DNA of 23,031 nt, from IMG/VR virus record IMGVR_UViG_3300045412_000016, positions 1-23,031 of that record; one strand, 5' to 3'. Both the position numbers and the translations under genes were made by a program. Source of the DNA: a virus. Shown here one piece after another: positions 2,339 through 6,022 of this stretch. Numbering within the stretch: the stretch's first letter is position 1; each line of letters begins with the position of its first letter. Under the pieces are notes generated by a model that saw nothing but the letters and a program-made list of their open reading frames with translations, did no database searches and was not told where the DNA came from.

Positions 2339-3313
2339 ATGTCCACAGATAATACAAATTTTAAAGAACTACTAGAAACACTTGTAAAAGTAGGGGTTGG
2401 CGGAAAATATAAGGACAGAGACGATTACGTAAAATTAATCACCCAAGAATTAGAGTTTGAGGAACGTATGATTAGGGGTGGTATTGATAGATATAATAAA
2501 ACTATAAATGATGCTAGGGCAAAAAACCAAGAAAGCACTACTAAATATGGTTTATATTATACTCAAAAATACGTCACTGCTCTTGCAGATATGCTCAAAG
2601 ACGATGTCGCAAACTGTATGGCAGGTTCGGTAGGGGTAACGCAAACTTCGTTAAAATTAATATGCCAGTGTTTGTCTGTTAACTCTTTTAATAATGAGGG
2701 TATCTTTCAACCTTCAACCTTTCAATGGCTACCTGTAAGTTTTATTTGTCTTAAAAATGTTTTAGATGGAATTTCAAAGTCTGTAACTGTTAATGAATTA
2801 TCTATGAGTATCAGTAATGCTCTTATGCAAGAGGCAAGACTAACTAAATTTAAAGATACCCAACCTGATAAATATGAGCAAATTTGTAAAATGCTAAATG
2901 CAGAAGGTCAAAATATGAAGAAAAATAAATACAGACATAAACAAAGAGTTTGGGTTTATTTTATGAACAAAAATAAATTAGATTTTGATGATTGGGTTTC
3001 AGCAGACAAGATACATTTAGGTGTAAAAATCATTAGCTATTATGAGAAATTAGGTCTTGTTACCCATGAAAATAGAAGAACTGCAAGGAATAGAACTACT
3101 ACTTTTATAGTAGCCACAGACAAACTTCTTGAAGAAATTAAAAATTATAATATCCACAACGAAGCATTACACCCAACTTTTTTACCAATGTTAATGCCAC
3201 CAATGGACTGGAGTTCACCATTTACAGGGGGTTACTATGGCAGAAAATACAATCAAAAAAACAAAGCAGAGGAAATCGTAAATGCATTACAACATAATAA
3301 AAAGTACAAATAG
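2339..3313 (+). CDS. T7-type RNA polymerase, N-terminal half (gp1, split gene)
   Basis: Starting at ATG 2339 this frame gives 324 residues that match the N-terminal and thumb portion of single-subunit phage RNA polymerases, including the block MLMPPMDWSSPFTGGYY near its end (T7 has PPxxW...GGGYW). It would supply the promoter-recognition and thumb parts of the enzyme. An in-frame GTG at 2276 would add 21 residues, but that start lies inside the 72-bp dyad; ATG 2339 fits the expected start better, though no clear Shine-Dalgarno is visible. The frame stops at TAG 3311-3313, just after the thumb, and the protein continues one frame over in the gene starting at 3282. It could be a natural two-part enzyme, a +1 frameshift product or a sequence error. 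Confidence 0.85.
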   Translation: MSTDNTNFKELLETLVKVGVGGKYKDRDDYVKLITQELEFEERMIRGGIDRYNKTINDARAKNQESTTKYGLYYTQKYVTALADMLKDDVANCMAGSVGVTQTSLKLICQCLSVNSFNNEGIFQPSTFQWLPVSFICLKNVLDGISKSVTVNELSMSISNALMQEARLTKFKDTQPDKYEQICKMLNAEGQNMKKNKYRHKQRVWVYFMNKNKLDFDDWVSADKIHLGVKIISYYEKLGLVTHENRRTARNRTTTFIVATDKLLEEIKNYNIHNEALHPTFLPMLMPPMDWSSPFTGGYYGRKYNQKNKAEEIVNALQHNKKYK

Positions 3314-4955
3314 AAGATATTTAGAAGAATTTAAAAACAGATTTGATGATATGCCAAATGTCATTAATTCAATAAATATTCTACAAAAATCTGAATGGGT
3401 AATTAATAAAGAAATTCAAAAGGTTTTTAATAAATGTGTAGACTTAGGATTACAATTTGGAAAACTTCCAATCAATCCAAATGAAATAGAACTTCCACCT
3501 AAACCAGTTGATATTGGAAGTAACAAAGAAGCATTGATTAAATGGAAAAGAATGGCTTCTAAAGTTTATGAAAGACGAGCTAAAAATAAATCAAAACATA
3601 TTCAAGTATTAATGATTAAAGCTGAAGCTGAATTATTAAGTAACTTTGATGGTTTTTATAATCCTCTGCAATTTTGTAAGCGAGGAAGAATTTATCCAAA
3701 ACCTGCAATGCTCAATATGCAATCTGCTGATTATGCAAAAGGATTATTAAAATTTAAATATGGAAAAAGAATGGAAGAAGATAATAGTTATGGTTATTTA
3801 GCAATAGCTGGTGCAAATTTATTTGGTGAAGTAGATAAAGGAAGTATTCAAGATAGAATTCAATGGATTGAAAAGCATGAACAAAAAATTTTATCAGTAG
3901 CTAAGTCACCTTTTGATGATAAGTGGTGGCATCAAGCTGATAAACCATTTCAATTTTTAGCTTGGTGTATGGAATACAGAGACTTTGCTGAAACAGATTA
4001 TGACGCAAGTTTTATAACTACTCTACCAATACAAGCTGATTGTTCTAACTCAGGACTACAACATTACTCGGCAATGATGAGAGATGAAGTTGGCGGTAGA
4101 GCTACTAATCTCATTGATGATGAAAAACCAAATGATGTTTATGTTATAGTAGCTCAACGAGTAATTGAAAAATTAAAATTAAGAACAGATGAATTTGCAA
4201 AAAAATGGTTAGCTTATGGAATAGATAGAAAAATTTGTAAGAAGCCAGTTATGTGTTTACCTTACAGCTTAACTAGATACAGTTGTAGAATGTATTTAGC
4301 TGAACACGTTTATCAACAGTTAAATGAAAGAAATATTCCTCATAATTTTGGTGATGATTTATTTGAAGCTACCAAATATTTAACTCCTGTAGTTTGGGAA
4401 AGTATTTACGAAACAATACAAGGTGCTAGAAATATTATGAAATTTTTAAAAAAAGTTTCATCGTTAGTGTCTTCAGAAAACTTACCGATTAACTGGACAA
4501 CACCATTAAATTTTCCAGTTCAAATGGCTTGTTACTCTATGAAAAGTAAAAGAGTTAAAACAAAAATGGGAGAAAGTATATTGATGCTTTCTTACCAAGA
4601 AGAAACTCCAAAAATAGATAAACGCAAAACTTCTCAAAGTATCTGTGCAAACTTTATTCATTCATTAGACGCTAGTGTTTTACAGTTAGCTGTTGTTAAA
4701 GCACACAAGGAAGGAATAGATAATTTTTCTGTAATTCACGATAGTTTCGGAGTGGTTGCTCCTGATACTCAAGTTATGGCTAAAGCAGTAAGAAATAGTT
4801 TCTGTGAAATATATTCTAAAGATGTCCTTAAAAATTGGGCAGAAGAAATGTTTGCAATGTTGTCTACCAAAAACCAAAAGAAATTTCCAACTATACCTTG
4901 CAAAGGTAATCTTAATTTAGAAGAAGTAAAGAACTCAAAATTCTTCTGTATTTGA
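3282..4955 (+). CDS. T7-type RNA polymerase, C-terminal catalytic half (gp1, split gene)
   Basis: The 557 residues cover the palm and fingers of a T7-family RNA polymerase. Catalytic residues are present: Asp253 (QADCSNSG, T7 Asp537), Arg316 and Lys320 (RKICKKPVM, T7 Arg627 and Lys631), Tyr328 (T7 Tyr639) and Asp487 in IHDSFG (T7 Asp812). The end KGNLNLEEV followed by FFCI matches the T7 C-terminal foot. The residue after Tyr328 is Ser, where T7 has Gly640. ATG 3282 follows an AGAGGA (3268-3273) at 8-nt spacing, so independent translation is possible. It overlaps the N-half by 32 nt in the +1 frame. It should transcribe the phage middle and late genes from phage-specific promoters. Confidence 0.93.
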   Translation: MHYNIIKSTNRRYLEEFKNRFDDMPNVINSINILQKSEWVINKEIQKVFNKCVDLGLQFGKLPINPNEIELPPKPVDIGSNKEALIKWKRMASKVYERRAKNKSKHIQVLMIKAEAELLSNFDGFYNPLQFCKRGRIYPKPAMLNMQSADYAKGLLKFKYGKRMEEDNSYGYLAIAGANLFGEVDKGSIQDRIQWIEKHEQKILSVAKSPFDDKWWHQADKPFQFLAWCMEYRDFAETDYDASFITTLPIQADCSNSGLQHYSAMMRDEVGGRATNLIDDEKPNDVYVIVAQRVIEKLKLRTDEFAKKWLAYGIDRKICKKPVMCLPYSLTRYSCRMYLAEHVYQQLNERNIPHNFGDDLFEATKYLTPVVWESIYETIQGARNIMKFLKKVSSLVSSENLPINWTTPLNFPVQMACYSMKSKRVKTKMGESILMLSYQEETPKIDKRKTSQSICANFIHSLDASVLQLAVVKAHKEGIDNFSVIHDSFGVVAPDTQVMAKAVRNSFCEIYSKDVLKNWAEEMFAMLSTKNQKKFPTIPCKGNLNLEEVKNSKFFCI

Positions 4956-5025: not shown

Positions 5026-5616
5026 ATGATTGATATAAAAACTATGGTAACACCATTAGGCGAAGCTATTTATCCTAGACTTCTTAAACCTGATACAAAG
5101 TTTAATGAGTTGGGTGAATATAAACTTACCTTAAAAATCAAAAAACGAGACGCATCTAAACTATTGTCTGATTTAGACTTATATCTAGGTGACAGTCTGG
5201 CAACTTTTGAAAGAGAAGCTAAAGGTAAAAAAATAAAAATAGCTCCAAAACCTTATACTACTGAAGGTGATTTCTCTATTTTAAAAATGAAGATGAAAGC
5301 TAGTGGTATAAATAAAAAGACAAAGCAACCATTTCAACAAAGACCAATTATTGTTGATGCAAAGAAAAACCCAATGCCAATAGACACTTACATAGCAAGT
5401 GGTTCAATGTGCAAATGTGTTTTTGATGCAATACCTTATCACACTCCAATAACTGGAGCTGGTATAACTTTACGTCTTAAAATGGTTCAAATTATTGAAC
5501 TTGTTACAAGAGATAGAGGTGACAATCTTCTTAAAGAAGAAGATGGTTATGTTACTGAAAAAGTTCAATCACCAACTAATGAACTATCCCAAGTTCAAAC
5601 GAGTGCAGATTTCTAA
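5026..5616 (+). CDS. Single-stranded DNA-binding protein (T7 gp2.5-like)
   Basis: The 196-residue protein is close to T7 gp2.5 (232) in size and has its plan: an OB-fold-like core with basic strands (KIKIAPKPY, about residues 68-76), then a C-terminal tail ending in a terminal Phe (SADF). In T7 the terminal Phe and acidic tail contact the DNA polymerase and helicase. Here the acidic stretch (KEEDGY, about 170-175) is moderate. It has the best Shine-Dalgarno of the region, AAGGAG (5015-5020) five bases before the ATG. It is first after the candidate promoter and its end overlaps the endonuclease gene. It should coat ssDNA and organise the replisome. Confidence 0.85.
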   Translation: MIDIKTMVTPLGEAIYPRLLKPDTKFNELGEYKLTLKIKKRDASKLLSDLDLYLGDSLATFEREAKGKKIKIAPKPYTTEGDFSILKMKMKASGINKKTKQPFQQRPIIVDAKKNPMPIDTYIASGSMCKCVFDAIPYHTPITGAGITLRLKMVQIIELVTRDRGDNLLKEEDGYVTEKVQSPTNELSQVQTSADF

Positions 5617-6022
5617 ATCTGTAACACTCAAATCTGGTTTAGAGGAAGTAATCTACAATTACTTAACAAATAAAAAAGTTAAATTTGTTTATGAAGGTTT
5701 TAAGATTACTTACTCTATGCCTGAACAGAAAAAAAATTATTTTGTAGATTTTCCTTGCAGTAACATTTTAATAGAAACTAAAGGTTCATTTAATTCAGCA
5801 GACAGAAAAAAACATAAATTAATAAAACAACAAAACCCAAACTTAGATTTAAGATTTATTTTTTCTAATTCTAAAATAAAAATTGGAAAGAAATCAAAGA
5901 CAACTTATGGAAAATGGTGTGATTTATTTGGTTTTAAATATCATTGTATTAATACGACTAAAAAAACATTCCCAGATGAATGGTTAAGCGAAATTAAAGA
6001 AACAAATAATGCCAAGAAGTAA
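5579..6022 (+). CDS. Endonuclease I, Holliday junction resolvase (T7 gp3-like)
   Basis: With the ATG at 5579 the protein has 147 residues, the same size as T7 endonuclease I (149). Catalytic positions line up: Glu22 in SGLEE (T7 Glu20), Asp57 in FVDF (T7 Asp55), and Glu66 and Lys68 in ETKG (T7 Glu65 and Lys67). RKKHKLI and IFSNSKIK further match the family. A longer start at 5495 exists, but it would add residues wholly inside the gp2.5 gene and is not needed by the family alignment. The chosen start overlaps gp2.5 by 38 nt. Its role is cleavage of branched DNA and host DNA breakdown. It acts as a domain-swapped dimer in T7. Confidence 0.93.
   Translation: MNYPKFKRVQISKSVTLKSGLEEVIYNYLTNKKVKFVYEGFKITYSMPEQKKNYFVDFPCSNILIETKGSFNSADRKKHKLIKQQNPNLDLRFIFSNSKIKIGKKSKTTYGKWCDLFGFKYHCINTTKKTFPDEWLSEIKETNNAKK

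Follow-up and report, generated by a model that had tools for sequence, protein, structure and literature searches.

Two overlapping genes encode the parts of a T7-type RNA polymerase in a pelagiphage-related virus genome

The DNA analyzed here, a virus record of 23,031 bases that we refer to as the window, carries, besides a T7-type RNA polymerase (RNAP) divided between two genes, genes for an integrase, an SSB, a tRNA-Leu, endonuclease I, a helicase-primase, DNA polymerase A, an exonuclease and a capsid protein. The integrase is of the tyrosine type (658-1884, identified with Pfam) and is followed by the tRNA-Leu (1937-2021), which lies upstream of the split RNAP and, judging from related pelagiphages as described in the accessible text of Chen et al. 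2019 (PMC6811365), is likely to serve as an attachment site. As listed, the ORF of endonuclease I (5495-6022) shares 122 nt with the SSB gene; its Pfam match begins only at residue 35, so its true start may be further inside. A direct-repeat search yielded no convincing phage promoter set.

The gene for the N-terminal RNAP subunit (2339..3313, plus strand) starts with ATG at 2339, ends with TAG at 3311-3313 and encodes 324 aa. The gene for the C-terminal, catalytic subunit (3282..4955, plus strand) starts with ATG at 3282, ends with a TGA stop and encodes 557 aa, which contain the thumb, palm, fingers and all catalytic residues. The two starts lie 943 nt apart (3282-2339), which equals +1 modulo 3, and the genes thus overlap by 32 nt (3282..3313, plus strand) in a +1 frame relation. 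A Shine-Dalgarno (SD)-like AGAGGA (3268..3273, plus strand) is found 8 nt 5' of ATG 3282, and the overlap includes a run of five A (3299..3303, plus strand) that had earlier been proposed as a slip site and is poorly kept in relatives. All of these elements, from the coordinates of both ORFs to the AGAGGA, had been reported in a preliminary description of this DNA, and we find them as it gave them.

In Pfam, the N-half matches RPOL_N (PF14700, E 3e-12) and the C-half RNA_pol (PF00940, E 4.5e-99). Against PHROG 414 (RNA polymerase, 816 positions), the N-half covers positions 3-260 and the C-half 264-814, and since these stretches adjoin, the halves represent successive parts of a single protein, as the preliminary description had supposed. 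Both the N-terminal domain and the polymerase core are therefore present in the window, by PHROG 414 coverage as well as by fold matches to T7 RNAP, and they are encoded by two ORFs in different frames rather than in one chain. A single polypeptide is the usual but not a defining trait of the T7-type family, of which phage N4 RNAPII is a two-chain member.

Where does the break fall on T7 RNAP? Profile comparisons with solved structures match the N-half to T7 residues 112-288 and the C-half to 312-883. Predicted alone, the C-half has a confident model (pLDDT 89.8), which aligns in structure with T7 286/292-883 at Z scores reaching 36.3; in the AlphaFold model of the N-half, residues 71-268 match the fold of T7 68-255 (Z 16.2). 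For the N-half alone, model confidence is low (pLDDT 67) and the tail is predicted badly, which is consistent with a chain that would fold against a partner, though it is not evidence for this. The N-half extends to the equivalent of about T7 residue 288 and then continues as a C-terminal tail of about 25 residues beyond a T7-like GGY motif, and ATG 3282 corresponds to about T7 290-294 when the sequences are compared by eye. We took the position from the profile and structure matches, as the global alignment floated the first five residues of the window's C-half; this puts the break in front of the thumb, at about T7 residues 289-293. The thumb of T7 RNAP comprises residues 326-411, and a break at this point leaves both the thumb and the DxxGR motif (T7 421-425) in the second half. 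The preliminary description had placed the break between thumb and palm, near T7 430, a position that the profiles and structures contradict and that is instead close to the division point of N4 RNAPII. A seam for bisecting T7 RNAP near residue 301 was reportedly found by Segall-Shapiro and colleagues in 2014.

Phage N4 RNAPII (gp15-gp16, PDB 6dt7) is likewise a two-subunit T7-like RNAP encoded by adjacent genes, a natural heterodimer of T7-like halves in which gp15 has the thumb and DxxGR (PMC4496689). In both cases two genes align to non-overlapping parts of T7 RNAP. The N4 division, however, comes after the thumb and DxxGR and before motif A, at T7 452/453 in the global alignment, and the window is not divided there; in structure, N4 gp16 matches only residues 166-557 of the window's C-subunit. 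Because the break sites differ (T7 ~452 versus ~289-293), the N4 and pelagiphage splits are probably independent.

We collected relatives by tblastn in phage records and by scans of IMG/VR and bacterial genomes. Among the matches listed by tblastn in phage records, the window's RNAP is closest to Pelagibacter phages, with HTVC041P and HTVC025P among the nearest. Two RNAP genes are annotated at the same junction in HTVC041P, HTVC025P, S30-C28, EXVC018P and EXVC020P (five cultured SAR11 phages or uncultured complete genomes), and also in the more distant Deep1-GF2-KM23-C739. The junction sample takes the best 80 loci at most per query and so leans to close kin; after deduplication by a 300-nt stretch it comprises at least 131 distinct junctions with both halves at the site, and 67 of the complete ones remain at <93% C-half identity. 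All 131 are split, cultured phages included, which is the outcome of a search for the split in related phages that the preliminary description had suggested as a check. Conservation of the arrangement in these relatives excludes a coincidental pair of ORFs. One contig was left out of the set (L183, from a Bdellovibrionales MAG): the frame of its RNAP-like matches changes within the core, perhaps through an assembly error.

The spacing from the stop of the N-half to the start of the C-half varies among the 131 junctions, with -32 (n=41), -1 (n=32), -29 (n=22), +1 (n=17) and -11 (n=11) as the common classes, and +131 (n=3), -20 (n=2) and +3, +5 and +497 nt (n=1 each) as rarer ones. The window's own overlap recurs in contigs L010-L017, whose N-halves are from 100% down to 81% identical to it. 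At the homologous start of the C-half the codon is ATG in 121 junctions and GTG in 10, every one of the 131 has an SD match of at least 4 nt, and matches of at least 5 nt occur at 86% of these starts as compared with ~7% of control ATGs. Some junctions hold further genes. In HTVC025P (L003 2513-3000) the RNAP halves are about 500 nt apart with the annotated genes gp10 and gp11 between them, and in three contigs (L067, L121, L128) the 131-nt spacer holds a small ORF starting MSRGTSRRLSWQPSHNRY. Small ORFs thus separate the halves in two lineages, so that the junction resembles any other boundary between genes. The HTVC025P stretch also shows an apparent third short ORF (MGTFVFCTGIIVLLFVYSVLAIIFDWEK).

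Both halves are under purifying selection, with dN/dS of about 0.07-0.21; for the window, dN/dS is 0.13 for the N-half against L019 and 0.08 for the C-half against L014. The equivalents of T7 D537, R627, K631, Y639, H811 and D812 are invariant in 37 aligned C-halves, the window included. The DxxGR motif of the window (3675-3689, C-half residues 132-136) reads CKRGR, with Cys at the equivalent of T7 D421, as it does in the window's closest relatives (L010-L019, L022 and L023); the aspartate is kept in 35/37 aligned relatives.

We think it very likely that the RNAP of this virus consists of two separately initiated, co-transcribed and probably coupled chains, which would most likely assemble non-covalently into one enzyme. 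That there are two genes with separate initiation signals, purifying selection on both and an inherited split is strongly supported by sequence comparison; co-transcription, coupling, assembly and promoter-dependent activity of the subunits are what we infer from it. Both genes would be transcribed together, and translation of the C-subunit would start at ATG 3282 from its own SD inside the end of the first gene, coupled to translation of the N-subunit. The 324-aa N-subunit corresponds to the promoter-binding and RNA-exit domain at the N terminus of T7 RNAP, and the 557-aa C-subunit to its thumb, palm and fingers; the two would join non-covalently to give one phage RNA polymerase, for which N4 RNAPII and the active engineered fragments of T7 RNAP set precedents. 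A natural two-subunit enzyme was the first of three readings offered in the preliminary description: the conserved start and SD bear out its separate translation, and the joining of the products is the part that we would infer. A related possibility, which we regard as unlikely, is that the N-subunit, being a separate protein, could leave or be exchanged after initiation, and would act as a dissociable promoter-recognition factor in a sigma-like division of labor within a T7-type polymerase.

The two-chain reading has to be weighed against several others. If ribosomes were programmed to shift by +1 in the overlap, with AAA AAG at 3299-3303 as one possible site, one full-length polymerase would result; this reading draws on the A5 run in the window and on the +1 offset seen in 93 of the 131 junctions. 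But the offset is +2 in 37 junctions, and in one it is 0, in frame behind a stop; AAAAA occurs within the overlap in 9/41 junctions of the -32 class and in 0/90 others, and so is missing from 122/131. The small ORFs that separate the halves of two lineages and the universally kept start codon and SD site of the C-half likewise speak against frameshifting, as do five junctions in which the two frames share no open window at all. We consider frameshifting very improbable for the window, and these comparisons reject it as a general mechanism for the clade and do not support the preliminary description's second reading of a shift on A5; a minor shifted product could formally still arise in single members, since the other 126 of the 131 junctions do have a shared open window.

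Could the polymerase instead be decaying after a recent inactivating frameshift, with the catalytic half alone functional, or neither half? The gene is split, and in the window's subclade the DxxGR aspartate is replaced by Cys, as decay might leave them, but both halves have a dN/dS far below 1, the catalytic residues do not vary, the C-half start and SD are conserved, and the split is old and common to the whole clade, so that we give decay very little credence. We hold it to be just as improbable that an intron or a split intein lies behind the arrangement, with the halves as exons or exteins that are joined at the RNA or protein level. The roughly 500 nt between the halves in HTVC025P would leave room for such an element, but a comparison of the window and the HTVC025P locus with Rfam returned no family other than tRNA and no intron match, MHYN stands at the very start of the C-half, no additional domain is present at either end, and overlapping genes leave no space for an intron. 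A one-base sequencing or assembly error that broke a normal single gene in the window's contig, the third of the earlier readings, has next to no probability in our view: a single-base difference can indeed fuse or split genes, as HTVC011P illustrates, but the window's overlap recurs in L010-L017, the split is found with other spacings in cultured phages, SAR11 genomes and many independent contigs, and in a freshwater phage of this kinship Chen et al. 2019 (PMC6811365, accessible text) found no reads without the split.

The isolate HTVC011P (L007, NC_020482), whose RNAP is recorded as a single 880-aa ORF, is given by Chen et al. 2019 (PMC6811365), in the text accessible to us, as the only unsplit member of the group. 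Near position 3011, its record has one base fewer in the overlap than five IMG/VR contigs that are 98-99% identical to it and all split, and the only other gaps between them, in the aligned region around the gene, are near 396-401, at the end of an upstream ORF. It follows that either this record is wrong or the genes fused very recently; since HTVC011P is an isolate, the fused gene may be viable. In a quick tree of 61 C-halves, 15 of them fused rows, all split rows together with HTVC011P lie on one side of a branch with SH-aLRT 99, opposite the 15 fused rows, and HTVC011P sits at a tip adjoining the split L097. A single origin of the split seems likely, though it is unproven because the outgroup branches are long. 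Taken across the junctions and the tree, the two-gene arrangement is inherited across a phage lineage and is not a sequencing error.

The window fits the split-RNAP pelagiphages of HTVC019Pvirus group III in having an integrase, a tRNA-Leu upstream and the RNAP in two parts, and shares with them the same integrase, tRNA-Leu and gene order (Chen et al. 2019, PMC6811365, accessible text). HTVC041P, HTVC025P and the other phage records listed as nearest to its RNAP belong to this group. That the RNAP genes of this group are split has been known since that report of 2019, which argued that the interruption was not recent. In its accessible text, it speaks of "fragmentation", gives no mechanism and does not place the break on T7, whereas we read the parts as two translated subunits; in further literature citing HTVC025P, "RNA polymerase" is not mentioned in the main text. 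As far as the literature searched shows, what is new is the evidence that two genes are translated, the mapping of the break to T7, the contrast with N4, the inclusion of the Deep1 lineage and the reduction of the HTVC011P exception to one base; the last of these weakens the reading of HTVC011P as a clear unsplit exception. The single-chain RNAPs of T7 and of fused pelagiphages such as HTVC019P and HTVC200P belong to the same family and lie at the same site by the SSB and endonuclease I genes; unlike the RNAP of the window, each is one uninterrupted ORF. Artificial counterparts exist in a phage T7 strain with a split RNAP (MG833025) and in engineered T7 RNAP, for which the accessible text of Segall-Shapiro et al. 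2014 (PMC4299498) names split points at residues 67, 179 and 601 and in which separately translated, co-expressed fragments restore activity, in line with the complementation of T7 RNAP fragments invoked in the preliminary description.

SAR11 are the ocean's most abundant bacteria, and their phages would appear to carry a stable two-protein form of T7-type RNAP. Textbooks present T7 RNA polymerase as the model one-chain enzyme, and its N-terminal domain refolds between initiation and elongation. The natural break point described here, just before the thumb, separates the promoter-binding domain from the catalytic core, and because the T7 N-terminal domain refolds at that switch, a two-protein RNAP would make the need for covalent linkage testable. 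The pair may also offer a naturally evolved set of fragments for split-polymerase engineering.
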